Assembly (NCBI GenBank): GCA_025356715.1
Contig: JANXRU010000146.1
Coordinates: forward strand, 1-64,000
Origin: Bacteroidota bacterium
Lineage (GTDB): Bacteria; Bacteroidota; Bacteroidia; B-17B0; B-17BO
Direction of reading: 5' to 3'
DNA: 64,000 nucleotides
The translations under genes were made by a program, and so were the position numbers. Below the pieces are notes generated by a model. The model was not told where the DNA came from. It worked only from the letters and a program-made list of their open reading frames with translations, and did no database searches. This document shows, in pieces, positions 8,873 through 53,300 of the stretch. Every line of letters starts with the position of its first letter. The stretch's first letter is position 1.

Positions 8873-9370
8873 TTATTCAACAATTAACACTCCTTGCATT
8901 TTCATCCAATGACCTGGATAGGTGCATATGTATGTGTATGTTCCCGCAGCAGGAGCCGTAAACTCCAACGTAACCGTTTTGCCAGGCTCTGAAACGGCTG
9001 ACCCTGCAATTACATTTGGATTTTGTGCATTAAAATAGTTTTTGTCTTTTAAAGGAATTCCTTCCATGGCTACTTCTTTTTCGGTTCCTTGTTTTACAAT
9101 TACAATATTGTGAAGCATGGCTGCATCATTTCCTTTATTAGTTAAATTAATTTTCACCATTGCGCCTGCTTTAACTTTCATTTCTTTGGTATCATAACTC
9201 ATATCGGCCATTGAGTTTCCTATTGCATTAATAGTAAACTCAACACTTTCGGGAGTAGCAGCTGGTTGTTCGGTTGCTGTAGTTTCGGTATTTTGTTTGG
9301 CTGGTTTTTCTCCACCGCATGATGCAAGTATTGTTGCACCAGAGAATAATAAGATGATTGCTTTTTTCAT
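8873..9370 (-). CDS. Azurin-like cupredoxin lipoprotein
   Basis: The 165-residue protein has a lipoprotein signal (lipobox ASC, C18), a linker rich in T, E and P, then a cupredoxin domain (about 43-165). The type 1 copper ligands are visible: H87 in MLHN, C149 and H154 in the Cys-x4-His loop, and M158 four residues later, which is the azurin arrangement. It is probably a membrane-anchored periplasmic or surface electron carrier; its partner is not shown by the context. It follows the AsmA-like gene by 52 bases on the same strand and is followed by a terminator. Confidence 0.88.
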   Translation of the reverse strand: MKKAIILLFSGATILASCGGEKPAKQNTETTATEQPAATPESVEFTINAIGNSMADMSYDTKEMKVKAGAMVKINLTNKGNDAAMLHNIVIVKQGTEKEVAMEGIPLKDKNYFNAQNPNVIAGSAVSEPGKTVTLEFTAPAAGTYTYICTYPGHWMKMQGVLIVE

Positions 9371-9422: not shown

Positions 9423-12086
9423 TTACTTCCCAAATAAACCTTTCAATTTTTTCTTGGCTTCTTCTTCAGCTTGTTTTTTTAGGTTATCACCTTCGGCTTT
9501 TGCTTTTGCTTCGCCTTCTTTTTTTAATCTATCGGCTTCGGCTTTCACTTTATCTTCATTTTCTTTTTTCAATCTATCTATTTCTGCTTTGGCTTTATCT
9601 TCCAATATTTTTTTCTGTTTATCTAGTTCGGCAGCTGCTTGGTCTTTTAATGAGTTGGCCTCACTTTTTGCTACATCACCCATATTTGTTTTTACAGTTG
9701 GATTAGAAAAGGTTCCACCAATTCCTAAGTTCACATTTACGGTTTCATTAAGCTTAATATTGGTTCCTCCTTTTTTATTAAGGTCGCTCATCATTTTATT
9801 TACCGCATCATTTGCACCACCCAATACCGAAAGTGGAACAGCCATTTTACCTGTGTAATCAATGGTTTTATCAATACCTGTTGAACCTGATAGATTTAAT
9901 TTTTGTCCGGCAACATTTACATCAAAAGGCTTCGTGTAAACTCTTCCTTTTTCTACTTTATATTGAATACGAACATTATTTAAAGCCAAGGTTTTAAGCT
10001 TATCATTTTTTAATGTGTTTGCTAACACATCTAAAACTTTTACTCCACTTACTTCGGCATTTGGAATTAATAGCACCCCTTCGGCAAATAAAGTTTCGTA
10101 ATTTGGATTTAGTTTTTTATCAAACTCAGTATTCATTTTAAATGTTGTAGAAAAATTTCCTTTTATGTTTTCGGCAATGGGAGCCATTTTTTTAACGGTA
10201 TTAAATGTTACAAATGCTTTTTGGAAGTCTAAATGTTCAATTCCGAAATTGATATTTGCTGTTGGTTTTTTAGGGTTTGTGGTTTCATAAAAACCGTCCA
10301 TACTCATGGCAGCGCCAAGTGTATTTAATGCAATTTTATTGAAGGTTAGTTTTTGCTCAGCAATATGAATTCCCCCTTTTAAATTGGTAATTTCCATATT
10401 GGTGTAAAGTAGTTTTTCGATACTGCTATTTAAAGTAAAATCAATGTTTGAAGGAATCTCTGGCGCATCCATTGAGGCAGTGTCAGGTTGTTTTGTTGTA
10501 TTGGTTTTAGCCGTTTCTTTTGATAAAAACTGATTGGCATCTATCATATTACTTCTAAAATCAAGTTTGCCAACGAGTGTTCCTTTGTTTAAAAAGTATG
10601 GAATAAAATTTTCTAATGTACCATCCATTTTCATATCACTTTTTCCAATGGTGGCATCAAACCCAGTAAGAGTAACAATTTTTGGGGAGAAGTTTAAAGC
10701 AGCATTTTTCAAATTCAGGCCCTGAGGTAAATCTGCTGATTGATAGGTAATGTTTTGCGCTTGAATACTTCCTGAAATAGTTACACTTTCATATCTCTTG
10801 GCTTCAATATCGCTCATTTTAGCTTTAGCTTCAAAATCAGAGGTAATTAATCCACTCACTTTCATTCCGTTTTCTAAAGGAATAATTTTAGTAATATTAT
10901 CGAGGTTTATTTTTCCTTTTAAATGCGCATCAATATTTGGATCCTTAATTGGATTTGTTACAATAAGTTTGGCATCAAACGCATCCTGTGCAATCTCAAA
11001 GTGCATTTTTGAAAGATTAATTTTGGTATCATCTAAGTTGCCATTTGGATTAGTAACCGCTAAATTTATTTGCACATTATTTACTGGTGAAGGCAATGCT
11101 GGATATTTAAACATTCCATTTTCAACCAATAGGTTTAAGGCAAATGCTGGCATCTGTTTGGCATTATAAGTTCCTTTTGCAAAGCCATCAAAACCAAGTT
11201 TGCCAGAAGTTTGTAAGTCTTTAAAATCTTTTGCATAAATAGCTGGAACTAACGAAAGGAAATTTTTAAAATCAGATTTCGTAACAGCATATTTTATATC
11301 CATTATAATATCATCGCCTTTCATTATCACATTTCCATCAAACCCTAAAACAAGTTCGTTTAAACTCATTTCGTTTTCTTTAAATGTAAATTTCATTTCG
11401 GGTATGTTGGCTTCAATATCAGCCTTGATACTTGATTTTACTTTACTTAAATAAGTTAATCCTCCCATGCTAAATGTTACTGCATCGGCTTCTGATAAAG
11501 TATTTAACAAAAAATTATCTTGAGTAAAATCTCCCTTTAAGGTATGTGATAAATTTTTAACGTTTGCATACACGCCTCCTTGTTTATCATCATAAATAAT
11601 GTTGGCATTTTTTATTTCAAACTTTTTTAAAGCAATATTAAATTTGCTTGAAGAAGTATCAGTGGATGGTTGTGTTGAGTCGGTAGATGGTTTGGTAATA
11701 TCCCAATTTGTTTTTCCATTTTTTAATACAATGGCATGGATAGTTGGTTGGTCTAAAAGTACACTTCTAATTTTAATTTTATCGCCATTAATCACACTCA
11801 TTATATCAAGTGTAGCTCTAAATTCTTTCAAAGATAGAAGTGTATCCCCTTCGAATTCGTCAATTCCAATTACACTTAAACCATTAATTCCGAGGGTAAA
11901 ATCAGGGAAATTTTTGATAAGACTAAGCGTGATATTGTTATCAAAATTTATTTTAGCATTTATATTTTTATTGGCTTCAGTTTTTACAATATCTACAATT
12001 TTACTTTTAAAAATAATTGGAAGAATAACAGCTGCTGCAATAATGAATACAATAAGTGAAACAATAATGATTAATAATTTTTTCAT
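9423..12086 (-). CDS. AsmA-like envelope protein
   Basis: The 887-residue protein has one N-terminal membrane helix (about 4-26), a long beta-rich body of AsmA type (LDQPTIHAIVLKNGKTNWDI-like motif around residue 105) and a charged coiled-coil tail. AsmA proteins are membrane-anchored and thought to span the periplasm, affecting outer-membrane lipid balance. The tail (about 829-873) is three copies of a 15-residue repeat of the form EDKxKAExDRLKKE, ending in KLKGLFGK. The gene starts only 5 bases after the receiver gene stop at 12092, so it may belong to the signalling operon upstream. Confidence 0.8.
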   Translation of the reverse strand: MKKLLIIIVSLIVFIIAAAVILPIIFKSKIVDIVKTEANKNINAKINFDNNITLSLIKNFPDFTLGINGLSVIGIDEFEGDTLLSLKEFRATLDIMSVINGDKIKIRSVLLDQPTIHAIVLKNGKTNWDITKPSTDSTQPSTDTSSSKFNIALKKFEIKNANIIYDDKQGGVYANVKNLSHTLKGDFTQDNFLLNTLSEADAVTFSMGGLTYLSKVKSSIKADIEANIPEMKFTFKENEMSLNELVLGFDGNVIMKGDDIIMDIKYAVTKSDFKNFLSLVPAIYAKDFKDLQTSGKLGFDGFAKGTYNAKQMPAFALNLLVENGMFKYPALPSPVNNVQINLAVTNPNGNLDDTKINLSKMHFEIAQDAFDAKLIVTNPIKDPNIDAHLKGKINLDNITKIIPLENGMKVSGLITSDFEAKAKMSDIEAKRYESVTISGSIQAQNITYQSADLPQGLNLKNAALNFSPKIVTLTGFDATIGKSDMKMDGTLENFIPYFLNKGTLVGKLDFRSNMIDANQFLSKETAKTNTTKQPDTASMDAPEIPSNIDFTLNSSIEKLLYTNMEITNLKGGIHIAEQKLTFNKIALNTLGAAMSMDGFYETTNPKKPTANINFGIEHLDFQKAFVTFNTVKKMAPIAENIKGNFSTTFKMNTEFDKKLNPNYETLFAEGVLLIPNAEVSGVKVLDVLANTLKNDKLKTLALNNVRIQYKVEKGRVYTKPFDVNVAGQKLNLSGSTGIDKTIDYTGKMAVPLSVLGGANDAVNKMMSDLNKKGGTNIKLNETVNVNLGIGGTFSNPTVKTNMGDVAKSEANSLKDQAAAELDKQKKILEDKAKAEIDRLKKENEDKVKAEADRLKKEGEAKAKAEGDNLKKQAEEEAKKKLKGLFGK

Positions 12087-12091
12087 GGGTG

Positions 12092-12487
12092 TTAAACTAA
12101 TTTTGATAATAGATTTTGAATACTTTGTTGAGTGATGGGTTTATTTAAATAATCTTTAGCGGTGATAAAAGTTTTTGCTTTTAAAATATCACTTTCGTTT
12201 ATTGATGAAGTTAAAAAATATGGGATGTGTAGATTTTGAATTTCTATTGGAAGTTTTTCAAATTCAGTCATAAATTCAAATCCATTCATTAAAGGCATAT
12301 TTATATCAACAAAAACAATTGTTTGAACATTGTTAGAAGATGTTTTTTTTATTGATTCGAGAGCCTCTGTTGCGTAAATAAATGATTGAATGTTTGCCCC
12401 ATCAATAGCATTTTGAATCATTTTTGTTGCAATAAAAATATCAATTTGGCTATCATCAATAATGATGTAATTATAGTTTTTGCTCAT
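12092..12487 (-). CDS. Stand-alone response regulator receiver protein
   Basis: The 131-residue protein is a single CheY-like receiver domain with an acidic pair (IIDDS), the phospho-acceptor aspartate in VFVDINMP (D61 from the chosen start), the conserved threonine/serine region TSS and a lysine in YLNKP. There is no output domain, so it probably acts by protein contact. I chose the ATG at 12487, one base after the preceding stop, over a GTG nine bases upstream that would overlap it. It is directly downstream of the receiver-kinase gene and 5 bases before the AsmA-like gene. Confidence 0.88.
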   Translation of the reverse strand: MSKNYNYIIIDDSQIDIFIATKMIQNAIDGANIQSFIYATEALESIKKTSSNNVQTIVFVDINMPLMNGFEFMTEFEKLPIEIQNLHIPYFLTSSINESDILKAKTFITAKDYLNKPITQQSIQNLLSKLV

Positions 12488-12488
12488 G

Positions 12489-13583
12489 TTATGCACTTTT
12501 GTTAGGAAGGGTTACAGTAAATTCTGTTCCTACGTTTTCGGTAGATTTTACTTCTATTTCTCCACCAATTCTTTTTAGAGTATCTTTTACATTGTACAAA
12601 CCAAATCCCGAACCAAATGCTTCGTTGGTTGCTCTATAAAACATATTAAATATTTGATCGATGTAATCTAGTTCGATACCAATTCCATTATCTTTAATGG
12701 TTATTATTGCTTTGTATTTGTTTTCTACAATTGATATTTCAACCCATTTATCTTCATTATCTTTTCGTTGGTATTTAAAAGCATTCGAAAGCAAATTATT
12801 GATAATTAATTTGATGCTCAATGTATCGGATTTGAATTTTCCAGTTTGTGTAACTTGAGTTTTTAATGTAATGCTATTTACTTTTTCATTTAGTGTATAA
12901 ATATCTTTCATATCATCCACCATTTCTTGAAAATCTATGCTTCTTATTTCAAGTTCGCCTCTATTAATTCTATAATAATCTTGGATGCTATCAATAAACT
13001 CATCTAATTTTTCGGCAGTTTCCTTAATCCAGCCCAATAGTTCTTTTGCTTTAGCAGGATTTTCTTCTTTTTCAAGTATATCAATTGCTCCTTTAAAACT
13101 CATCATAGGACCTTTTAAATCATGAGTTACACTATGTGCAAATTTGTCTAAATCATCATAAGCTTTTTTGAGTTCTTTATTTTTTATGGCCAACAAAGAA
13201 GTGGTTAAATAAAATTTATGTGCTTCATCAATGGCGGTAATAATATCATTTTCAACCCAAGGTTTTTTAATATATCTAAAAATATGCCCCCTATTAACGG
13301 CATCAATAATTGATTCTATATCGGTATATCCAGTAATTAAAATTCTAACAGGATAAGGAAATTTACTTCTTAGGATTTCAAACAACTCTACACCGGTTTT
13401 CTCAGGCATTCGTTGATCAGAGAGTATAACTTGAATATCAGGATTTTCATCAAAAATTTTTAACGCCTCAGCATGGTTACTGGTTGTAAAAATTTCATAT
13501 CTAAACCTAAATGATGCTTTAAAACCAATTAAATTTTCTTCTTCATCATCAAGGTATAATATTTTTATTTTAGGATTTTCCAC
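12489..13583 (-). CDS. Receiver domain fused to a histidine kinase
   Basis: The 364-residue protein has an N-terminal receiver (about 6-120) with D56 in SDQRMP and K108 in IKKPW, a short helical linker, a HisKA helix with H154 in VTHDLKGP, and an ATPase domain with DNGIGI (298-303) and GSGFGLY near 325. No membrane segment is visible, so it is probably cytoplasmic and takes its input through the receiver, perhaps from the membrane kinase encoded just upstream. Its receiver closely resembles the whole divergent receiver gene at 17659. The start is GTG, 11 bases after the previous stop. Confidence 0.9.
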   Translation of the reverse strand: MENPKIKILYLDDEEENLIGFKASFRFRYEIFTTSNHAEALKIFDENPDIQVILSDQRMPEKTGVELFEILRSKFPYPVRILITGYTDIESIIDAVNRGHIFRYIKKPWVENDIITAIDEAHKFYLTTSLLAIKNKELKKAYDDLDKFAHSVTHDLKGPMMSFKGAIDILEKEENPAKAKELLGWIKETAEKLDEFIDSIQDYYRINRGELEIRSIDFQEMVDDMKDIYTLNEKVNSITLKTQVTQTGKFKSDTLSIKLIINNLLSNAFKYQRKDNEDKWVEISIVENKYKAIITIKDNGIGIELDYIDQIFNMFYRATNEAFGSGFGLYNVKDTLKRIGGEIEVKSTENVGTEFTVTLPNKSA

Positions 13584-13594
13584 GCGATACGAAT

Positions 13595-15790
13595 TTATGA
13601 TAATTGTTGAACTAAAGGAATTTCAATTATAAATTCTGTTCCTTCATCCAAAACAGAGTTTACCTGAATGCTTCCATTATGCTTTTTAATGATATTATAA
13701 ACTATTGATAATCCCAATCCAGTTCCCTCACCAACAGGTTTTGTTGTATAAAAAGGTTCAAACAGTTTATGCTTTGTAATTTCGCTCATTCCAATTCCAT
13801 TATCTGCAATAATAATATGTAGGTTATTGCCTGTGAAAATTGTTGACAGGGATATTTTGCCTCCATCAAGTTCTCCAAATTTCGATTTAACAGCATAAAT
13901 GGCATTTGAGATAATATTTAAAAAGATTTGATTTAATTTTCCAGGATAACAATCCACGATGCAATGAGGTTGGTATTTTTTAATTATTTTTATTTTGTTG
14001 GATAACAAATTATTTACAATAGTAATGGTTGAATCTAAGCCTTCATTAATATCGGCTTTTTTCAAATCATCTTCATCCAATCGAGAAAACACACGCAGTC
14101 CTTTTACAATTTCAGCGGTTCGAGATGATCCTTCGTTAATTCCTTTCAGTAAAAAATCAATTTCGGTTTTTAGATAATCAAAATCAATTTCGGTTTTTAA
14201 TTCTTTTATTTTTTCTTGTTTTTCTTGTTCAGTTAAATCTAAAATGGAAAGGGTTTCAATTTTATTTAACAGTTCAAGCACCATATCTACATCACGCTTC
14301 AAAGGTTTTACGTTGGATGTAACAAAATTTATTGGATTGTTTATTTCATGGGCAATGCCTGCTGTAAGCTGACCAAGTGATGCCATTTTTTCTGATTCAA
14401 CAAGTAAGGCTTGAGCTTCTTTTAATTCATGTAAAGTTGAATTTAGTTGTGTATTTGATTCGTTGAGTTCAAATGTTCGCTCGTTCACTTTTATTTCCAG
14501 TGTTACATTTTGTTCACGAATAATTTTTTCGTTTTCTTGAGCAGATGCTAATGCTTCTTTTTGAGCAAGTTCTTTTTCTTTTCTAAAAATATTTATCTTA
14601 TCGGCAAGTGCAAATGAAAGTAGCAAAGTTTCAGATGCTGAACCCCACTGAAGTGATGAATTGGTAAAAAGATTACTTGGTATGACACTGAAATTTTTTA
14701 AAATAAATAATACTAATGCAGCTATAAAAATAGACCAAGCCAACAAGAAGAATTTTGCAGGTCGATAATTTTTTAAGGAAACATATATAGAAAAAACTAA
14801 CGCATAAATACTCACTAATAATCCCACAATATCGAGCAGTTTAAATGCTGTTTGATGATATCCCAAAGTATAACTTAAAAATATGGCGATATAACCCGTA
14901 TAAAAAAAATATAACCCTTTGTGTAAGTATGGAGCGTGATGTTTAAGATTTAGAAAACCAGAAGCAAATGAAATGGCTCCAATTCCAGAAATTACCGAAC
15001 TGATAACAATAATTAATGTATTTAAATTTGGTGTATCTACAATAATAAAACGCATAAAAAAACCACTCAGCCCAGCTTGTGCAATGGCAATAAACAATAC
15101 ATAAATAACGTAATACAAATAGTTTTTGTCTTTAACAGATAGATAAACAAATAAGTTATACAAAAACATAAACATCATGATGCCAATGTATATAGCTATT
15201 AAAATATTATAGTTGGTAGAGTTGCGGTAAAAATCTTTAATAGTACTAATTTGAATGGGAACTAATAATTGAAGTTCGCTATTGATAAATAAATAAATTT
15301 CAACACTATCGTTTTCATTTAAATGGGGTAAATAAAATGAAGGGTATTGATGTAATATTTGTTTGGCATAACTTGGGTTTTGATTACTTATTTGCATTGA
15401 ACTCCAAGCAGCGTTATTCTTTTTATAGTAAAATGTGATATTATCCAGCAGCGGATTTTCAATACTTAAAATATAGTTTTGGGTATGTTGTTTAGCAATA
15501 AAACTAAACTTAAACCAGCAGCCATTTTTTTGATAGGCAAGATTGATAAAATTTTCTTCAACTTTTTTGAATAAATTATTATTTAATGCCTTGTTAAAGG
15601 TTATTGATGAGTTGGAGTCTATTAAATATTCAATATCACTTTTTAATTTAAGTTGACCTTCGGGAAAAGTAATAATCGACACTGCATTTGATGCAAATGC
15701 AAGTGCAAGAACGCAAATTAGAGTACTCGTAATTCGTTTAATGATGAGCTTAATTTTTATTTTTAAGTTTAAATTCATTTTTATTTGCAT
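13595..15790 (-). CDS. 7TMR-DISM sensor histidine kinase
   Basis: The 731-residue protein has a signal-like N-terminus, an extracytoplasmic beta domain (about 45-185, 7TMR-DISMED2 type), seven or so membrane helices (about 190-395), a coiled coil (about 400-465), a HisKA region with H481 in AHEINNP, and an ATPase domain with N-box near 629, DNGIG (663-667) and GTGLGLS (689-695). It is likely an inner-membrane sensor for a periplasmic ligand. The ATG at 15790, or another at 15778, overlaps the previous gene by 41 or 29 bases, suggesting translational coupling to the acyltransferase-like gene. Confidence 0.9.
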   Translation of the reverse strand: MQIKMNLNLKIKIKLIIKRITSTLICVLALAFASNAVSIITFPEGQLKLKSDIEYLIDSNSSITFNKALNNNLFKKVEENFINLAYQKNGCWFKFSFIAKQHTQNYILSIENPLLDNITFYYKKNNAAWSSMQISNQNPSYAKQILHQYPSFYLPHLNENDSVEIYLFINSELQLLVPIQISTIKDFYRNSTNYNILIAIYIGIMMFMFLYNLFVYLSVKDKNYLYYVIYVLFIAIAQAGLSGFFMRFIIVDTPNLNTLIIVISSVISGIGAISFASGFLNLKHHAPYLHKGLYFFYTGYIAIFLSYTLGYHQTAFKLLDIVGLLVSIYALVFSIYVSLKNYRPAKFFLLAWSIFIAALVLFILKNFSVIPSNLFTNSSLQWGSASETLLLSFALADKINIFRKEKELAQKEALASAQENEKIIREQNVTLEIKVNERTFELNESNTQLNSTLHELKEAQALLVESEKMASLGQLTAGIAHEINNPINFVTSNVKPLKRDVDMVLELLNKIETLSILDLTEQEKQEKIKELKTEIDFDYLKTEIDFLLKGINEGSSRTAEIVKGLRVFSRLDEDDLKKADINEGLDSTITIVNNLLSNKIKIIKKYQPHCIVDCYPGKLNQIFLNIISNAIYAVKSKFGELDGGKISLSTIFTGNNLHIIIADNGIGMSEITKHKLFEPFYTTKPVGEGTGLGLSIVYNIIKKHNGSIQVNSVLDEGTEFIIEIPLVQQLS

Positions 15791-16484
15791 CTAATATTTC
15801 AAGATCCCATTCAATATCAATTTCCCTTGTTCGGTATGGAACTAACTCTCTGCAAAACTGTTTAGGTTGCAATCTCAATGATCTAATTTTTTCAACTTCA
15901 TATGGGTCGGCAGTGCTCAATTTTTCAGTATCTTCTAATAAAACAGCTGTTGCTAATAAGTCCTCTTTGGGATAATAAAATGTGCCATGATTTCCCAATT
16001 GATCAACAGTAATACATCCAACGCGTTCAGAAAATTTAACGGTGTATGGAGCACATAATGCCCAAATGGAAGAAATTCCAATTTGTTCGGCAATAGCAAT
16101 ACCGGCACGTGTAATAAAAAAAGCCCCAATTCCCAAACCTGATGCTTCTCTTGAATTCCATGAACCACATAATTCACCAGTTCCGTCTTGGCTTAAAATT
16201 TTTACCATGTTGTAAATTTTTTCATCCATATATCCTGTGGCTTCTTCAATGGGCAAAGGAGTAATTCCATTAGCTACATTAACTCTGGCTCCTCCATAAA
16301 CTTTTTGTTTATCTAATGATTCAACAATAATCGCAAATGATGCTGGATTATACATCCATTCATTTTTTGAAGAAGTTACTTGATTAACTCCAACCAATTC
16401 CAACACATGTCTGTGCCCTTCAATAAATTTAAGGCAAGCTTCTGGGTCGGTTGTTGCTCTAAAAGCTCTTATACGACAGTGCAT
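15750..16484 (-). CDS. GNAT/autoinducer-synthase-like acyltransferase, tentative
   Basis: The 244-residue protein looks like a diverged GNAT or N-acyl amino-acid synthase fold. YGGARVNV is followed by LPIEEATG (a beta strand with acidic residues), then ELCGSWNSRE-SGLGIG-AFFITRAGIAIAEQIG resembles the acyl-CoA binding turn and helix, and YTVKFSERVGC resembles the last GNAT strand-turn. The assignment is by eye and weak; a structure prediction would settle it. It starts 3 bases after the ThiF-like gene and overlaps the kinase gene, so it is firmly part of this operon. It may make or attach an acyl group used in signalling, which is speculation. Confidence 0.45.
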   Translation of the reverse strand: MHCRIRAFRATTDPEACLKFIEGHRHVLELVGVNQVTSSKNEWMYNPASFAIIVESLDKQKVYGGARVNVANGITPLPIEEATGYMDEKIYNMVKILSQDGTGELCGSWNSREASGLGIGAFFITRAGIAIAEQIGISSIWALCAPYTVKFSERVGCITVDQLGNHGTFYYPKEDLLATAVLLEDTEKLSTADPYEVEKIRSLRLQPKQFCRELVPYRTREIDIEWDLEILDANKNEFKLKNKN

Positions 16485-16487
16485 ATC

Positions 16488-17549
16488 TTAGAAAATTAAT
16501 TTTTCAAGATCAATATAAAATCTACCGGAATTTTGATGTTGCTGTAATAATATTCTTCGTGTAATATCAGTTGTGATTGCTCCTCCTAATACCACTGATG
16601 ACGCTAATTGCGGCCAGGTTGTAATTGTTTTTCCAATTTCTGTCATAGAGTATTTTAATCTATCTGAGCAATTTTCAAATGAAACAAGTTTCATCAGAAT
16701 TTGGATTCTTTCATTGGCATCAATATTTTTTAAATGTAATAAATTTTCTTCGTTTATCAACCCGTGGAAAATTGGTCGGTTGGGTTCAAGGTCAAATCGT
16801 TCAATATCCAACATCCCTTTATCATTGGTATCCATTACCACAGGTAGAGCTATTTTTCTGGCGTATAAGCGAGTAGCAACTTTTATTTCCAAACTATCAC
16901 ATACTTCAATAGCGATATCTAATTTACCATCACCTTCAAAAAAATCGGAAATATTATTTTCTGTAATGCCTTCATCAAAAATTTTAACAGAAATAAATGG
17001 ATCAATTTCTGAAATTTCTCGTGCGGCAAAAATTACTTTTGGTAAACTTAGGTTATGTAATCCGGTTCTTATTCTGTTTAAATTACTTAGTTCGAGTGTG
17101 TCAAAATCGGCTAACCTAATTTCGTTGCAAATGCGTTCTGTTGCTATTGTTAGCGCAATTGAGTGTCCAACGGATAAACCTATTACACCTATTTTTTTTG
17201 ATGAAAGTATAGTCATTTCATCAGGTGTAATTTTATATTTATTTCTACTCGTTCTTAATTCGATAAATTCTTTTTCATCAAGGATATGAATTAAATTTTT
17301 GTTCCAAGGATAATATGCCCAAATGCCATAATTTTCTGTTGATATATGATTAATATGTTCAGCGATAAGTTGGGCATATTCTTGTTCATTTAATATTCTT
17401 TGAGGATTTTTTGACTTTATTAATTCTCTTAGTTGAGAATCTATTGTATCAATAACATTTACTAAATTATCTTTTCTTAAGGTGTTCAATAATTCAGTAT
17501 CATCAGGCTTCACAAATATTGGTTTGTATTGATACGATTTATTTTTCAT
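16488..17549 (-). CDS. ThiF/E1-like adenylyltransferase
   Basis: The 353-residue protein has about 120 N-terminal residues of unknown type and then a ThiF/MoeB/E1 domain. Seen are a degenerate nucleotide loop (IGVIGLSVGHS), the ADFDTLELSNLNR signature with acidic residues and the conserved Asn and Arg, and a DTNDKGMLDIERFD segment. Zinc Cys-x2-Cys pairs and an obvious catalytic cysteine are missing. The GLSVG form resembles the E1 half of Rv1355c-type proteins, but no nitroreductase domain follows. Such enzymes adenylate a C-terminal carboxylate. The ATG at 17549 is preferred to a TTG at 17582, which would lie at the predicted transcription start. It heads the operon. Confidence 0.75.
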   Translation of the reverse strand: MKNKSYQYKPIFVKPDDTELLNTLRKDNLVNVIDTIDSQLRELIKSKNPQRILNEQEYAQLIAEHINHISTENYGIWAYYPWNKNLIHILDEKEFIELRTSRNKYKITPDEMTILSSKKIGVIGLSVGHSIALTIATERICNEIRLADFDTLELSNLNRIRTGLHNLSLPKVIFAAREISEIDPFISVKIFDEGITENNISDFFEGDGKLDIAIEVCDSLEIKVATRLYARKIALPVVMDTNDKGMLDIERFDLEPNRPIFHGLINEENLLHLKNIDANERIQILMKLVSFENCSDRLKYSMTEIGKTITTWPQLASSVVLGGAITTDITRRILLQQHQNSGRFYIDLEKLIF

Positions 17550-17586
17550 ATTTTTAAGATGTTTAATTTTGCGAGGAGGCAAGTAT

Positions 17587-17594
17587 CAAATTTA
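17587..17594 (-). promoter_or_regulatory. -7 element upstream of the ThiF-like gene
   Basis: The minus strand reads TAAATTTG, a full match to TAnnTTTG, 37 bases before the ATG at 17549. No clear -33 TTG is seen at the expected distance, so the promoter is plausible but not complete. Confidence 0.45.
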
Positions 17595-17658
17595 TTAATC
17601 TGAATAACTTGCGAAAAATAACTATTTGTTTTAAGTTTACGCCACTTATTTATTAGAT

Positions 17659-18126
17659 ATGGCTGATAAAATGATTAGTATTCTATACATAGATGATGAA
17701 GTAAATAATCTTCAATCGTTTAAGGCAACCTTCAGACTAAAATATAATATTTATATTGCCATTAGTGGCGAAGAAGCTAAAGAGGTTTTGAAAAATAATT
17801 CCGATATCGAAATTATTATTACCGACCAACGAATGCCAAATATGACAGGTGTTGAATTTTTGGAATCTATTCTTGAGGAGCATCCTGAGCCAATAAGGAT
17901 TCTTTTAACTGGATATGCAGATTTGAATGCGGTAATTGATGCGGTTAATAAGGGAAAAATATTTCATTACTTGAGCAAACCTTGGAACGAAGAAGAAATA
18001 ATTAAAACAGTAGAGGTTTCTCATGAGTTATATGAAAAGAGAGAATTAGAGAAGACATATACCAACAGTGTGGAAACAGTAAACAGCCAATTAGAGTTTT
18101 TACTTAGACAAAAACTGCTTTCTTAA
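17659..18126 (+). CDS. Response regulator receiver protein, divergent
   Basis: The 155-residue protein is a receiver domain (about 6-120) with D56 in TDQRMP, a TGYAD threonine site and the lysine in LSKPW, plus a short helical tail with no recognisable output domain. It is strikingly similar to the receiver of the kinase encoded at 12489, including the FKATFR and AVIDAVNKGKIF segments, so the two are paralogues. It is transcribed away from the ThiF-like gene with 109 bases between the starts. It probably exchanges phosphate with one of the two kinases of this cluster. Confidence 0.9.
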   Translation: MADKMISILYIDDEVNNLQSFKATFRLKYNIYIAISGEEAKEVLKNNSDIEIIITDQRMPNMTGVEFLESILEEHPEPIRILLTGYADLNAVIDAVNKGKIFHYLSKPWNEEEIIKTVEVSHELYEKRELEKTYTNSVETVNSQLEFLLRQKLLS

Positions 18127-44318: not shown

Positions 44319-47300
44319 ATGAGAACAGCTAAGCAATTATTATTTAAATCAATTATTCTCCCCTTTATTTTAATAGCTTCAATTGTTGTAGCTCAAACAC
44401 CAATTACCGGTGCTAAGTCAGTACCTGGTAATTATTCGTCTATTAAAATGGCTATTGATAGTTTAAACTTTAATGGTGTCGGGGCGGGGGGAGTAACTTT
44501 TAATGTTCTTGCTACTTGGACAGAAACTGCACCAACCGGTGGTTATCGTATGACGGCTACTGGTAGCTCCTCTAATCCTATTGTTTTTCAAAGAAGTGGA
44601 ACTGGGGTGAATCCATTAATATCAGCTCCAGTTGGAGCTGTAACAGTTTCGAGTGCATCTACAACACTTGATGGAATTTGGACCTTTGTTGGATCTGATT
44701 ATGTAACGATCAACGGTATAGATTTAGTTGATAATAATACCATGCCATCAGGAGCTAATAGTAATATGCCTGATTTCATGGAATATGGTTATGGTTTTTT
44801 CAAAAATTCGGCTGCCGATGGTTGCCAAAACAACAGTGTTAAAAACTGTAAGATCACGCTAAATAATCTGAATGGTTTAATTGGTCCGAGCTTTGGAACA
44901 AATTCATTTAACGGGGCAACAGGTATTCTTTTTTCACCCACTAAAGATACAGCTATATCAGCTGCTGCTGTATTTACACCTTCTGCTGCTTCGGGAACGA
45001 ATTCATCTAATACTATTTACACCAATAATTTCCTTAATTGCTATACAGCAGTTGGCATATTTGGATATTCTGCTGCTTCTCCATATACCTTAGGAGATGC
45101 TAATAATGATATTGGTGGAAATTTAGCTAGTACTGGAAATAATATTCTTAGTTTTGGAACAGGGTTAACGAACTATTTTGTTGCATCTGCTGCTTATGCA
45201 ACAAATGCTATATTGGTTACATCAACAGGTCTGGTTTACCGGGTAAGTGTTGGTGGAACTTCAGGTGTTGCTGCACCAACAACTACAACACTTAACTCAC
45301 CAATTGTTAATGGCTCTTGTACACTTTATTATTTGTATACAACCGTTTTTGCCAATGCAATTTTAGTAAACAATCAGTATGGAATTAATATATCATACAA
45401 TAATATTGTGAATAGCGGAAATGGTAATGGAGCTCCTTCAATAGTAGGTATGCGTGCAATATATATTGGGACTGCAGCGGGAGCAAGTGCAACTGTTACT
45501 TATAATAATATTAATTTAAAAGCGATAGCTTCAGCATCCAATCTTGAAGGGATACAAAATGCAGCAGGAAGCACTGCTAATGGAAATACAATTAACATTT
45601 CAAACAATACACTTTCCTTAACTGAAGGATTGGCTCTGAATTCTACAACAGGAGTGCTAAATGTTCAACCAACAAGTTCCGTTTATGGAATATATAGCAA
45701 TGGCGCCTCTCCTGCAACACTAAGCGTTACCAACAACACGTTTACCAATGATACTAATTACAGCACATCAGGTACCACCTATATGATCTATAATACGGGT
45801 GCTGTTACAACCACTATTAATTTAAATAATAATACTATTGGAAATATGGCATTCCCTGGAGCTTCTGCTAATACTGGAACTATTTATGGTATTTATACAA
45901 GTTCAGGATCGGCATCAACTACCTTAAACACAAACAATAATATTTTTCAGAACTTCAATTTTACTACCACTGCCACCGGAACTATATATTTTATATACAA
46001 TAGTACTCAACAGGGTACATCTAATATGAATTCAAATAATTATAATAACCTTACGTTGAATTCAACAGCAGCCTGTTATTTCGCTTATAATAGTAATGCT
46101 ACCCAAACTACTAATTTTAATAACAACTTTATTACCACTGCGTTTAATAAAACAGGAGCTGGAGGAACTCTTTATGGTTATTATAATTTTGGAAGCCCAG
46201 GAGGAGGAATAGCTACTTTCACTGGAAATAATTTTTCCAATATTACTTTAATTGGTGCAACTGCTTTATATGGTATTTACCAGGCTACCTCAACAAGTCA
46301 GCAATACATAGGTACAAATAATATTGTGAATAATGTTACCAGTGGTGCTGCAGCTATTAGTGGTTTATATTTCACCTATGGAGCAGCAGGATGCGTACTA
46401 AGCGGAAATACTGTTTCCAATATAACTTGTGCTTCTACTTTGTATGGAATTCAACTAGGCACTACAGCATCTACATCCTTAAACTGTTTTAGTAATAATA
46501 TTAATAGTTTAACCACTACGGGTGCCGCTGCTGTTTATGGCATTTACCATGGTGCCGGTACAGCCACTAATATGTATCAGAATAAATTGTTTGCTATTCA
46601 AGCGAACAATGCAGGAGGTACTTCTTTTGGGATTTATATTTCAGGTGCCACCACTGTATCCATGTACAATAATGTTTTAGGAAATATAACAGCACCTATT
46701 TCTACCATTACTGCTCCAACGCCTGCCGTTACAGGTATTTACCTTAGCGGTGGCACAACAATAAATATGTATTATAATACGGTTAATTTAAACGCAACCA
46801 GTTCTGGTGTCAACTTTGGAAGTGCAGCACTTTATACATCTACTACACCAACTTTAACACTAAGAAATAATATTTTAATTAATAATTCAACAGCAAATGG
46901 TACGGGTAAGACAATTACTTATCAAAGAAGTTCGACTACTTTAACTTCGTATGCCAATACATCAAATAATAATGTTTTTTATTCAGGGGCTACACCATCT
47001 TCTACCTATACTTTATTTTATGATGGAACCAATGTTGACTCCACTCTTGTTCAGCTTAAAGCTTTTGTAGCTCCAAGAGATGCTGCATCTAACACTGAAA
47101 ATACAACTTTCATAAGCACATCCGGAGTTTCTTCAAACTTCTTGAATCCTGATAGTACAGTAACGACAGTTGTTGAAAGTGGAGCAAGTAATATTGCAGG
47201 AATTACTACCGATTTTAACGGACGAATCCGTGCCGGAAATGCCGGCTATACGGGTACTTCTACATCTCCTGATATTGGGGCTTTTGAAGGTAACTTAATA

Positions 47301-50300
47301 GGTATACCGATGGTTTATGATTCAAGTAATGTTGATCAAATTATCACAAGTGTTCCTGTTGGTGCAACAAACCAAGCCATTGTTGCTATCAGAGTTTATG
47401 CAGAGAATTCATATAATGCTCTTACTTTAACAAGATTTAAATTAAACACGGCAGGCTCAACAAGTGCAGCCAATATGATTAACGCTAAAGTATTCTATAC
47501 TGGAAGCAGTTCGGTATTTTCATCAGCAACTCAATACGGAACTACAGTTGTTTCACCCAGTGGATTGTTTTATGTTAATGGGAGTTCGCCACTAGCTCCA
47601 GGTGTAAATTATTTTTGGGTTACTTATGACGTATCGGCATCAGCAACGCCTTCAAATGTTTTAGATGTAAGAGTTGATAGCTTATTGCTTTCAGGAGTGA
47701 ACAGAACACCAATCAATGGAAATCCAACCGGATCAAGAACTATTTTGGGCCCGATGTCAGGAACATATTTAGTTGGTTTAGGTCAAACTTATACCACTAT
47801 CACATCAGCCATTGCAGATTTAAATGCACTTGGCGTTAGTGGGGCTGTTTCATTACAACTTACTTCTTTGTATTCAAGTGCATCAGAAACTTTTCCAATA
47901 ACATTTGGTGCAATAAGTGGAGTTGGTCCAACTAAAAAAGTAACTGTTATACCTCAAACCGGTGCAACGGGTCTTAGCATTGTAAGTTCAAATACAACTG
48001 CAACAATAGATATGAATGGTTGTAGTTATATAGTGATTGACGGTAGACCAGGAGGAACCGGAAGCCGAAATCTTGCAATTGGAAATACATCTACATCAGG
48101 TGTTGCTATTCGTTTTATCAACGATGCTTGCTTCAATACTATTCAACATGATACTGTTTATGGAGTGAATTCAGCATCAGCAGGTGGGGTTATTTTCTTT
48201 TCTACTACATCCGGTGTTAGAGGAAATGATAGTAATACAGTTGACAACTGCGATATTAAAGATGGTGCAACTACTCCTGCAACAACTATTTATTCAGCAG
48301 GAAATACAACAACCACTGCTTTAAATAACAGTAATAATTTTATCACAAATAATAATATCTATAATTTCTGGAACGCTACTATTGAATGTAATGCATTTAA
48401 AATTACAGCAGGAAGCACAGATTGGATAATGAGTGGAAACAGTATGTTCCAAACAGCTACTAGAACCGCTACTGCAGCGTTCCAACAATATATTTGGAAT
48501 TGTAATAATACGGGAGCTAACAATCACATCATGACCAATAATTATATTGGAGGAAGTGCACCGTTATGTGGTGGTACACCATGGACGGCTAATAGTTCTG
48601 TTGGATTTAGGATTACGGGTGCTTATTTAAATGTTGGAGTAATAACACCATCAACGTTCAGTGGAAATACTTTTGCCAATATTAACCTTACTAGTGCAGG
48701 TACAGCTTATACAACTACACCTGGAGTGTTTTCAGGACCTTGGTTAGTGGGTGGTTTAGTGAATGTAAACAATAATACATTTGGTAGCATGACCTCCACA
48801 AATTCAATTGTTGTAAATAGTGGAATAGCAAGTAATTTATTGGTGCCTATTGGAGCAACAGGAACTCCTGCAGGAACCATTTCTATTAAAGGCAATAATT
48901 TTGGAGGGATCACTATTAATGGTTCTTCAACAAGTATTAATTCAACTATTAACTTAATTAATATTACTACTTCAACAACAACTACTACTTACAATATTGA
49001 TAGCAATACTTTTGGAAATGGCTTAGCTGATAATATTATTGCTGCAACTGCTTCTGTTTCTGCAACCGGGCAACAGGTAGCAGCTATTCTTTCAAGTGCT
49101 GCTACCAACTTGAATATTCGGTACAACACCATTCAAAATTTTAGAAATAATGCCGTGGGGACATCAACTACTCCTATCAATTGGTTACATGCAATAGATA
49201 TTAGTGGAAATAGTATCGACTCGATTATTGGCAATTCCATGTTTAATTTTAATATTGGTTCAACCTATCAAAATAATAATACAGGTAGTTGCGCCTTAAT
49301 GGGAATTAGAGCCGTTCCGGTAACAGCAGGGAACTATATTTCCGGAAATCAGATATATGGATTTAGCCAAACCTATACCGGATCGAATGCCGTTTCATCC
49401 ATTGGTATTTTAACAAACAATATGTTAACTCCGTCTATTATTCAAAAGAATATTATTCATTCTTTTAATATAGCGGCAAGTGGAAATACCTCATCCATTA
49501 CGGCTATTTATGCTGGTGGTGGTTCAGAGAAATTTATTAATAACATTATACGGTTAGGTATAGATACTTTAGGAACACCTATTACTACTACTCCATTGAT
49601 CTATGGATTTTATAAAAGTTCAGGTGCAATTAACGTTCTTTTCAATTCGGTTTATATCGGTGGATCAGGAATTGGAAGTGGAGTTGCAAATACATTTACA
49701 TTTTATAGTGCTGCAAATGGAATTGATTCAATCATGAATAATGTATTTTCTAATGAACGTTCTAATTCTTCAACAGGAGGAACACATTATGCTATAGGTC
49801 TTGCAGGAAATACAACTCTTTCATGCAATGGTAATATATATTGGTATAATGGTTCAGGGGGGGCACTTGGATTATACGGAGCCACTCCTTCAACGACTTT
49901 ATCTGCTTGGAATACTTTATCAGGAGTTGATGGGGCAAGTGCATTAGCTAATCCACAATTTATCAACCCTACAGGTACAAGTTCAACATTTAATATGCAT
50001 ATCAGTTCATCCATACCAACACCGGTAGAGCGTTCAGGGATTTTTATTCCGTACATTACAGATGATATTGACGGACAAACAAGAAGTGCTTTAACACCAA
50101 CAGATATTGGAGGTGATGCAGGTAACTTTATTCTTAGCGATGTTATTGCGCCAAATATTTCACATGTTGCAGTTGGTAATACCGCATCAACTTCTGATAG
50201 AACTATTACAGCAACAATAACGGATGCAACAGGAGTTAGTCTATACAGTACAAATCGTCCGAGAGTATATTTCAAGAAATCTGCGGCAGGAACATTTGTT

Positions 50301-53300
50301 TCTAATGCAGGAACATTTGTTTCAGGTACGGCTCAAAATGGGGTTTGGTCATTTGTTATCAGTTCATCTGCAATGAGTGGTCTTACGCTTGGTGATTCAG
50401 TTTATTATTATTTGATAGCTCAAGATAGTTCGTCATCAACAAATATATCATCGCTTCCTTCTGGTGTTTCAGCAGTTACTGTTAATGGTATTATTTCTAA
50501 CCCACCAACAAATTATAGCTATACCATTGTGCCCGGCTTTAGCGGAACAATTACCATAGGATCTGGTGGAACTTATCCATCATTAACAACGGCAGGCGGT
50601 ATTTTTGCTGCTATTAATGCAGGTGCTTTAACAGGGAATGTTACATTAATGTTAGTGAGTGATCTTTTAGAAGATGGAACAAATGCTCTTAATGCTTGGA
50701 GTGAAACTGGTGGAGGAAATTATACTTTATCTATTGTACCTGATGGCACTACAGAAAGAGTTGTTGCGGGTTCAAATGCAGGTGCTTTAATTAAATTTAA
50801 TGGTACTCGAAGAGTTAAAGTAGATGGACGTTTTAGTGGAGTTGGTCGTTATTTGAGATTCAGAAACAGAACTCTGGCTGGTGTTACTTTCCAATTCATC
50901 AATGATGCACATCGAGATACAATTACTTATTGTAGCATTGAAGGAGTTAATAACACAACAGGAACCATCTTGTTTGGAACATCAAATGCTGTTGGTGGAA
51001 CAGGTAATGATTCCAATGCAGTGACTTATTGTTTAATTCGTGATACTTTGGGAACATCAGTTGTAACAGGTGTTCCGAATACAGGTGTAAGTTCATCAGG
51101 AACCAGCGGATTAGAAAATAGTGAAAATGCTCTTTTGAATAATGAGATATATAATTGGGGATACAATGCTATAAATTTAAATGCTACCGGAACCGGAAAC
51201 AATTGGAATATTAGTAATAATTCTTTTTATCAAACGGCTAACAGAGCTAACAACCTTCAAATAATATTGATCTCTGGAGGAACAAGCCATAGTATTCGTA
51301 AAAACAGTATCGGTGGTGCCGCAGCAAACAGAAGTGGCAACATCCTTCAAACAAGTAGTGGTTTATATGGTGTATATTATCAATCTGCTGTTACAGGAAC
51401 ACCTTCCGTAATAGATAGTAACACATTTGCTAATTTAATGACTTCGTCATCAACCGGTGTATTTGGTGTTTATGTAACAAGTGGAACAGTGAATATAACC
51501 AACAATACAATTGGAGGTTTGCAAAATGCATGGGACACAATACAAAATGGTTATGACAATGGATTAATATACGTGAGTGGAGGAACTGTTTTAATTGATA
51601 AAAATACTATCGCTAATGCTAAATATATTGGAGGCTCTGGAAACCGTATGGCCGGAATGTATATTGCAGGAGGAGTAACCACTATAACAAATAATATCAT
51701 TCACGATATGGTTGCTAATTCAACCGGTGGCGGATATTTATATTTACCTGTTGGAATTTTATTTTATGGTACTTCCGGTACACATACCATTGAAGGAAAT
51801 ACTATTTATAATATTATAAATAATAACACCGGAGCAGCTACTTATGCTGCAGTTGGTATTGATGTTTATGTCAGTGCTTCTGTTCCTGTTACAATAAAAA
51901 GAAACCGTATTTATAATGTGTACACTTCCAGCACAGGTGTGGGAGCAAGCTCAGGTTTAGCTTCAGGAATTTATGTTGGTACAGGTGGTAATTCTATTTT
52001 GAATAACCAAATAAGTATGGGCGCGTCATCTATATTAGAGAACCGTGTTGTGGGTATACAAGATGTTGCATCAAGTGGTACTAATACTTTTTATTACAAC
52101 AGTGTTTTCATTAATGGAACTACCTCAACAGGAAGCAATAATTCATATTGTATTCAACGTACTTCAACTGCAACGGATATTGTATGGAATAATATTTTTT
52201 ACAACAAACGAACCACAGCGGGAACTGGTTACAATTATGCCACGGGATCAAGTAGTGCCACAGGTATAACTTCAGCGTCTATTGATTATAACTTATTGGT
52301 TGTTCCAGATACTTCAAAAATTGCTGAACTACCTGTTAATATTCCAAATGGTATTAGTGCATTCAATACATTATTTAGGCCAACTACATACAATACTAAC
52401 TGGATGGAATTAGCTTCAACTATTCCATCACTAAATTTATTTACGGATACCTCTGTAGGAAACCTGAACATAAATACCGCAAATGCTGCAAGTTGGTATG
52501 CAAATGGAAAAGGGATTGCACTTGCCGGAATCACCGGAGATTTTGTGAATGCTTCAACAACGCGTTCCACCAGTATTTCAACGGGCTCAACGGATATTGG
52601 CTCTGTTGAGTTTACTACAGCCACTACTCCTCCTGTAGCTATTGCATCTTCTTCACCAACTTTGGGAACTACTTCAACATATTCTTTTGCTAACAGACAA
52701 GTAGCTAGTATTAATTGGGGGTCAACAGGTGTAGTACCTTTTAGTGCTACAGTTACATATTATAGTGGAATAAATGCTCCAAGTTTAATAGCAGGCAAAA
52801 CTCAATATAACGGTTATGTAAATGTAAATGCAATTGGTTCTGTGGGGCTTAATTATATTATTTCTATCATAAGTGATAGTGCTATTTTGGGAAATGTTTC
52901 TAGTTCATCGTCTTCAAGACTTGCTTATTACTCTACATCAACATGGAATTCGGTAACAACAAGTTTGGCTAACGCTTCAACTGGTATATTATCTAGTACC
53001 GTAACCTTAGGTTCGTCATCTTTATCGTCAGTGTATACAGGTACTGATATTACTAATCCTTTGCCTGTTGAATTAGTAAACTTTGCGGCAAATACAGATG
53101 GAAAAGATGTATTCCTAAAATGGAGCACTGCAAATGAATTAAATAATAGAGGCTTTGATATTGAAAGGTCGGTTGATGGAAATCATTTTGAATACATCGG
53201 TTTTGTTCAAGGAAATGGAACATCATCATCATTGAATAATTATACATCAATAGATAAAGAAGCATTTAGTTCAACTGCATCAAACATTATTTTTTACCGA

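Follow-up and report, generated by a model that had tools for sequence, protein, structure and literature searches.

An acyltransferase and ThiF-like enzyme operon of Bacteroidota as a candidate synthase-receptor circuit

The 64,000-nucleotide stretch of DNA analyzed here (the window; contig JANXRU010000146.1 of the Bacteroidota bacterium assembly GCA_025356715.1) contains an operon in which a ThiF/E1-like enzyme and a GNAT-like protein are encoded directly beside a 7TMR-DISM sensor histidine kinase (DISM kinase), a protein joining a receiver to a histidine kinase (receiver-kinase, or REC-HK), and single receivers. The locus raises the question of what these enzymes and a membrane sensor have to do with each other. 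A preliminary description of the sequence proposed that the two enzymes make or attach a small acylated or adenylated product that is sensed by the kinase. Comparison of related loci gives strong, if indirect, support to the idea of a sensed acylated product: when the type of enzyme that fills one position of the operon (the slot, occupied by the ThiF-like enzyme in the window) is exchanged, the sensor half of the kinase is exchanged with it. Because of this joint replacement, the module is read, with a probability of roughly 0.76, as a synthase-receptor circuit, an operon that would make an acyl amino acid-derived signal and also encode the kinase that reads it.

Conservation of the gene set and the enzyme slot

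A scan with the ThiF protein identifies 28 named Bacteroidota loci, and a ThiF profile finds the gene, in one copy each, in 11 of 296 genomes sampled across the phylum and in 170 of 400 genomes of the Pedobacter order. Neighborhoods were fetched for 119 of the ThiF-positive genomes or their genus-mates. These, the 28 named loci, and the window amount to 148 loci, of which 142 are left without six duplicates and 130 after 12 loci without flank are dropped. All 130 contain the GNAT and DISM kinase genes, whose adjacency in other Bacteroidota the preliminary description had proposed as a check, and nearly all contain the receiver-kinase (128) and an opposite-strand receiver (127), referred to below as the tailed receiver; a same-strand single receiver is found in 69 of 96 loci. 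Given this recurrence, the window operon is not a chance grouping. Six gene orders are observed among complete loci when the oxidase described below is ignored, and a gene set that stays constant while its order shifts suggests joint function. The module is found in many soil and water Bacteroidota, including four genomes of Pedobacter cryoconitis (L008, L015, L026, and L028), a species for which deletion tools have been published in another strain (PMC12181424). AsmA, the next gene in the window, was considered as a module member and rejected, a relative being present only in the nearest locus, L025, among the 28 named loci. In L120, L121, L123, and L126, two opposite-strand tailed-receiver-like genes lie adjacent to each other upstream of ThiF.

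The view of the module as centered on ThiF was abandoned, as GNAT proved to be the constant part. In the Pedobacter order, GNAT is present in 222 genomes, comprising all 170 ThiF-positive genomes and 52 without ThiF, and in the phylum sample it is present in 12, namely all 11 ThiF-positive genomes and G130. In a genus of 93 genomes (Sphingobacterium, as judged from L004 and G002), ThiF is found in 28 genomes and GNAT in 65, the tailed receiver is found in the same 65, and both are missing from the same 28 genomes (two lists compared by reading). The preliminary description held that its proposal would be contradicted if ThiF-like and acyltransferase-like genes occurred together without the kinases. 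Such a pair does exist outside Bacteroidota, on a Streptomyces plasmid where ThiF adjoins a GNAT gene without these kinases and where a sensor and a response regulator unrelated to those of the module are found ~5 kb away, but kinship between the module GNAT and the Streptomyces GNAT partners is not detectable by sequence. In the Bacteroidota loci examined no such pair is seen; the DISM kinase stays, and the ThiF gene is the replaceable one.

What replaces ThiF is visible in 40 ThiF-less loci, fetched from 38 of the 52 GNAT-positive, ThiF-less genomes of the order and from two others of the Sphingobacterium-type genus. In all 40, a conserved class I S-adenosylmethionine (SAM) methyltransferase of ~255 residues is encoded between GNAT and the kinase, and in 38 the receiver-kinase and opposite-strand receiver are present as well. 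At E 1e-20, the methyltransferase profile matches nothing in the 148 ThiF loci. In G130 (L234), the slot is filled by an ICMT-family protein (PF04140, 70.6 bits; cut-off 24). Three unrelated enzyme types following an N-acyl amino acid synthase (see below) point to a single shared job, which would most simply be capping of the carboxylate, by ring closure or as a methyl ester. In G562, a genome of the methyltransferase type (L219), a tailed receiver is located ~37 kb off on the same contig.

Covariation of the kinase sensor half with the slot enzyme

The DISM kinase of the window is composed of a sensor half (residues 1 to ~400), containing a DISMED2 ectodomain and the 7TM region, and a HisKA/HATPase transmitter half (residues ~400–731). 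The sensor half follows the slot enzyme, and the transmitter half follows the receivers. This division is apparent in a set of 166 loci (66 ThiF-oxidase, 61 ThiF, 38 methyltransferase, and one ICMT), from which L002 (no GNAT), six duplicates, and 16 loci with a missing or short domain were left out. Slot type requires eight changes on the sensor tree, 24 on the GNAT tree, 30 on the kinase-domain tree, and 34 on each receiver tree, with ~76 for shuffles. For methyltransferase loci versus all others (38 versus 128), a single change is sufficient on the sensor tree, with 14 each for GNAT and the kinase domain and 18 for each of the two receiver trees, and no methyltransferase/other mismatch of sensors is found. 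Sensors of these two groups share at most 40% identity, whereas their kinase domains reach 96%. Given the transmitters, slot difference predicts sensor distance (r = 0.415, reached in 0 of 1000 permutations); the values for GNAT, the kinase domain, the receiver-kinase, and the receiver are −0.026, 0.015, 0.025, and −0.076, respectively.

At a transmitter identity of at least 0.90, sensors are 87% identical when the slot enzyme is the same (73 pairs) and 27% identical when it differs (five pairs, which are not independent and amount to two contrasts, L168/L203 and L213 versus four related ThiF loci), with GNAT at 96 and 95%. This tie between sensor and slot would be left unexplained if the kinase sensed an outside cue and controlled the synthesis of N-acyl amino acid lipids, the product not being its ligand. 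Regulators beside their target genes are common, and kinase sensor domains diverge fast, as they do between same-type pairs here; even so, environmental regulation of this kind is improbable.

The clearest exchange is that between L168 (ThiF) and L203 (methyltransferase), which come from two species. At the DNA level, identity is 89–97% across GNAT, 49–58% across the slot and sensor half (68% at the junction), and 95–100% across the kinase half, receiver-kinase, and receiver; the outer flanks are 90–100% identical, with two exceptions immediately upstream of GNAT (200-base bins of 66 and 80%). The corresponding proteins (rounded) are 100% identical for GNAT, 30% for the sensor, 96% for the kinase domain, 99% for the receiver-kinase, and 100% for the receiver. 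L132 and L213 show a like pattern with a more diverged receiver end, and L122 and L143 represent a replacement within the ThiF type (ThiF 51%, sensor 46%, receiver 100%). Divergence at four-fold sites was tried as a replacement test and set aside, being near saturation in most pairs examined; it is clearest in L122/L143, with 0.26 for ThiF, 0.28 for the sensor, 0.51 for GNAT, 0.53 for the kinase, and 0.67–0.69 for the receivers. In 16 close pairs with different slot enzymes, identity of the DISM kinase is 13–46% over residues 1–390, 70% over residues 391–420, and 69–95% thereafter, and past residue 420 these pairs are like 148 same-slot pairs. The break at residues 390–420 corresponds to the end of the 7TM region (residue 398 by Pfam).

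Tree distances were also compared among 89 ThiF-type loci (7 of 96 were dropped beforehand). Those of the sensor half correlate with ThiF at 0.69, with GNAT at 0.65, and with its own kinase half at 0.50, and the kinase half correlates with the receiver-kinase at 0.84 and with the tailed receiver at 0.91. The partial Mantel correlation of ThiF and sensor given the transmitters is 0.589 (reached by 0 of 2000 permutations), that of the kinase domain with the receivers is 0.79–0.86, and that of the sensor with the receivers given the rest is 0.07–0.09. These permutations take no account of phylogeny. Counts of tree changes measure the association better and come from trees without a support test. 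By such counts, oxidase presence needs four changes on the ThiF tree, six on the sensor tree, 12 on the GNAT tree, and 13–14 on the transmitter trees, with ~30 for shuffles.

Predicted chemistry and the proposed circuit

Searches of Pfam and NCBIfam with the GNAT-like protein give no match up to E 0.1, and thus none by sequence to an autoinducer-synthase family, yet the predicted fold of the protein is the AHL-synthase-like GNAT fold, resembling the N-acyl amino acid synthase FeeM and N-acyl-homoserine lactone (AHL) synthases, in keeping with its initial naming. Identity to FeeM and LuxI-type AHL synthases is 8–12%, and a GNAT profile gives no convincing match among PDB chains. TyzA, a studied acyltransferase of oxazolone biosynthesis, likewise has FeeM and BjaI as its nearest structures (PMC10404671). 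The GNAT is predicted to synthesize N-acyl amino acids and to be the synthase that all forms of the module share.

The ThiF-like protein matches NF005901, the Rv1355c/TrzS family, with 454.2 bits over model positions 4–339 of 722, below the cut-off of 476; four relatives with a fused flavin oxidase (L001, L013, L006, and L018) score 753–800 bits, above it. By this match, it corresponds to the N-terminal, cyclase half of the family without the flavin-oxidase half, which is fused to ThiF in 67 of the 130 loci and absent from the window protein. Residues D159, D161, N167, N169, R170, K182, and D229 are invariant both in 22 Bacteroidota rows and in eight rows that include actinobacterial relatives, and D229 would be the counterpart of TrzS Asp217. 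Studied members of this family cyclize N-acyl amino acids to oxazolones. An E1 fold and weak PADLOC matches to E1-E2 systems, 29 bits at best, are also what E1-like protein modification or an E1-E2-type defense operon would offer. With Rv1355c/TrzS as the best family, a slot interchangeable with methyltransferases, and a conserved set in which no E2 or ubiquitin-like gene was noticed among open reading frames (ORFs) of at least 80 residues, the likelihood of either is negligible. There is also no sign of attachment to a protein, so that "make" rather than "attach" survives from the preliminary description; of its acylated or adenylated product the first alternative stands, whereas adenylation would be a transient step only and the product most likely an N-acyl amino acid oxazolone. 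On a Streptomyces plasmid, a 622-residue protein (L155:7170-9038) contains a ThiF domain and, at its N-terminus, a weak match to GNAT (17.8 bits; cut-off 20.7) and is followed by a β-ketoacyl-acyl carrier protein synthase III gene; this fusion may be an acyl-oxazolone pathway in a single protein, with an acyl supply of its own.

In the proposed circuit, GNAT would join an acyl group from acyl-coenzyme A or acyl-acyl carrier protein to an amino acid, as its predicted fold suggests. The ThiF-like enzyme, whose family is established and whose activity is proposed by analogy to TrzS, TyzB, and OxzB, would then use ATP to adenylate the carboxylate, after which ring closure by the amide oxygen would give an N-acyl amino acid oxazolone. 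A saturated ring is expected in the window because its operon has no flavin oxidase; in relatives, the fused oxidase would be added, or the SAM methyltransferase or ICMT-family protein may, in our reading, cap the same carboxylate as a methyl ester. The capped product would be the ligand of the DISMED2-7TM sensor half, as the joint replacement strongly suggests, and, made inside the cell, it might either leave as a neutral acyl compound or be read in the membrane. From the kinase, phosphate would move on to the receiver-kinase and to the single receivers; judging from their architecture, these proteins would act through protein contacts. The circuit might serve to measure cell density or to report the cell's own state. 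That the window's own product is a saturated oxazolone is somewhat favored; confidence is lowered because no oxidase-free type has a sensor close to that of the window. On balance it is also probable that, more broadly, one GNAT combined with exchangeable capping enzymes (cyclase, cyclase-oxidase, SAM methyltransferase, or ICMT) yields distinct neutral signals, with capping enzyme and sensor half exchanged together in pherotype-like groups, and that this constitutes a widespread cell-cell language of Bacteroidota.

Several observations weigh against the synthase-receptor circuit. First, many loci encode the slot enzyme right next to the sensor half, and a single exchanged stretch of DNA could carry both. 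In the 38 loci of GNAT>ThiF order with the receiver downstream, the contrast is gone, the sensor correlating about equally with ThiF (0.62), GNAT (0.64), and the kinase domain (0.65), and residual partial correlations are seen between ThiF and the kinase domain (0.206, 0 of 2000) and between GNAT and the receiver (0.151, 6 of 2000). A linkage artefact, in which recombination moves slot enzyme and sensor half as a block without any functional match, could use the flanking GNAT and kinase domains as homology for exchange. It is nevertheless very improbable. In the 39 loci of ThiF>GNAT>DISM order with the receiver upstream of ThiF, the sensor correlates with ThiF at 0.74 despite the intervening GNAT, and that receiver varies with the kinase domain (0.85) rather than with ThiF (0.40). 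These values, the intragenic break at a domain border, the frequency with which GNAT is left behind in exchanges although it lies near the slot enzyme, and the lack of any methyltransferase/other mismatch in 166 loci, where the best cross-group identity is 0.40 for sensors and 0.96 for kinase domains, indicate that linkage is not the whole answer.

Second, oxidase presence is tied to the sensor more loosely than the methyltransferase: different-slot pairs reach a sensor identity of 0.67, and for 8 of 166 sensors the nearest neighbor belongs to another slot type. The window is an instance: every one of its nearest sensors in the set compared (0.35–0.37) belongs to an oxidase-fused locus. The actual closest relative of the window, L025 (sensor 0.70), lies outside the set and lacks a complete ThiF. 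Of 222 close pairs (7 of 130 loci dropped beforehand), 96 have a sensor identity below 0.55, and 37 of the 40 printed are of the same slot type. Many same-type pairs differ in their sensors, which must mean either finer specificities or rapid drift. Third, two of the 40 methyltransferase loci, L219 (G562) and L252 (G326), have no adjacent receiver genes, the target atom of the methyltransferase is inferred, and the GNAT shows no significant similarity to one Rhodococcus candidate acyltransferase (a possible TrzA) beside TrzS (hhalign E 0.27). Tryptazolones are more abundant inside cells than outside (PMC12856293), and no recurrent DNA-binding output or exporter is seen.

Enzyme and sensor would also be replaced jointly if the kinase sensed the cell's own antibiotic-like or stress metabolite and tuned its production or self-protection, with cell-cell signaling not the purpose. 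Lantibiotic kinases sense their own compound to this end. N-acyl derivatives of tyrosine can have antimicrobial activity, and oxazolones may have a link to stress (PMC12856293). Such production control is conceivable though unlikely: the neighborhoods viewed, in which flanking genes were not annotated singly, contain no recurrent exporter or immunity gene, and a REC-HK with a single-receiver output matches the quorum circuit PhcSRQ. The role of oxazolones has been called a major unresolved question (PMC12856293), and no receptor for acyl-oxazolones was found in the open-access literature among the matches listed. If the synthase-receptor circuit is correct, acyl-oxazolones would gain their first known role, as signals, and Bacteroidota a dedicated acyl-signal system. 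In well over a hundred of the genomes examined, a candidate receptor is encoded next to the synthase, and evolution has in effect already carried out the swap.

The window operon and its relation to known systems

The five minus-strand ORFs and the divergent receiver are all open at the coordinates in Table 1, and the tight packing reported in the preliminary description, with AsmA just beyond and a divergent receiver opposite, agrees with these ORFs and their Pfam domains.

Table 1. Features of the window operon and its immediate surroundings.
Feature	Coordinates	Strand	Remarks
ThiF/E1-like cyclase	16488..17582	-	364 aa; Pfam ThiF 51.3 bits; NCBIfam NF005901
GNAT-fold acyltransferase	15750..16484	-	3-base gap to ThiF-like gene; predicted N-acyl amino acid synthase
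7TMR-DISM sensor histidine kinase	13595..15790	-	41-base overlap with GNAT gene as called; Pfam domains
Receiver + histidine kinase (REC-HK)	12489..13583	-	364 aa; 11-base gap to DISM kinase; PhcR-like architecture
Single receiver	12092..12496	-	8-base overlap with receiver-kinase; Pfam Response_reg 46.6 bits; less conserved member
AsmA	9423..12086	-	5-base gap to single receiver; Pfam AsmA
Divergent single receiver	17659..18126	+	155 aa; 76 bases from ThiF ORF; conserved module member
Intergenic region between divergent units	17583..17658	.	Presumed promoter region, from position only

The ThiF-like ORF begins with TTG, and an in-frame ATG is located 11 codons downstream. Pfam domains of the DISM kinase are 7TMR-DISM_7TM (150.5 bits), 7TMR-DISMED2, HisKA (26.1 bits, slightly below the 26.9 cut-off), and HATPase_c, and those of the receiver-kinase are Response_reg (residues 8–118), HisKA (145–208), and HATPase_c (253–361). 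Pfam shows no DNA-binding domain in the receiver-kinase or the single receivers. The divergent receiver ends in N-x-Q-[LM]-E-F-L-L-R-Q-x-L-L followed by S or D, a nearly invariant C-terminus present in 16 of 16 aligned rows (window 18082-18123, plus strand) and likely to be an output contact or docking site. Beyond AsmA, a plastocyanin/azurin-like copper protein is encoded at 8873-9370 (minus strand), in the same order as in L025. The longest open frame of the window by far, 3103 residues, is located at 44319-53630 (plus strand).

No description of the module was found in the open-access literature among the matches listed, subscription papers and preprints being outside the scope. Similar to TrzAS, TyzACB, and OxzAB, the module combines an AHL-synthase-like N-acyltransferase with a ThiF cyclase, joined by a flavin oxidase in the 67 relatives; it differs in the absence of the oxidase from the window and in a pathway bound to a sensor kinase. 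Signaling genes are found near the family elsewhere as well. In Mycobacterium tuberculosis, the locus of this family lies beside cyclic di-GMP genes (PMC12856293). On two Rhodococcus plasmids, TrzS-family genes lie near a GGDEF gene, with a ~259-residue neighbor as a possible TrzA (L157:4004-8097 and L162). These neighborhoods hint that oxazolones meet signaling in these actinobacteria too.

In contrast to LuxI-type AHL synthases and FeeM, the predicted acyl amino acid here would be capped by a second enzyme, and, in place of the receptor LuxR of AHL systems, the module has a membrane kinase. The agr and comQXP pherotype loci also contain signal-making genes and a receptor sensor half that vary as one block inside conserved flanks; they differ in having peptide signals and unrelated genes.

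A close likeness, one of architecture, is to PhcBSRQ of Ralstonia, which likewise comprises a synthase (a methyltransferase in Phc), a sensor kinase, and two proteins that have no DNA-binding domain, namely a REC-HK and a receiver protein (PMC8578825). PhcR has 368–374 residues and the receiver-kinase here 364 (PMC8578825, PMC6989110). PhcQ is longer (336–337 residues) than the 155-residue divergent receiver (PMC8578825); for its action, binding to the regulator PhcA (PMC13320629) or, alternatively, an effect on signal production (PMC6989110) has been reported. The Ralstonia proteins PhcB and PhcS group according to signal type, and PhcR and PhcQ group by phylotype (PMC8578825); the joint exchange of slot enzyme and sensor half here, apart from the receivers, resembles this. 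The differences are that Phc uses a hydroxy fatty acid ester rather than an acyl amino acid presumably made by GNAT, and that the module has a 7TMR-DISM sensor and an exchangeable capping enzyme. By this analogy, the module is best read as working in the manner of PhcBSRQ, with a capped N-acyl amino acid as its putative, autoinducer-like ligand.

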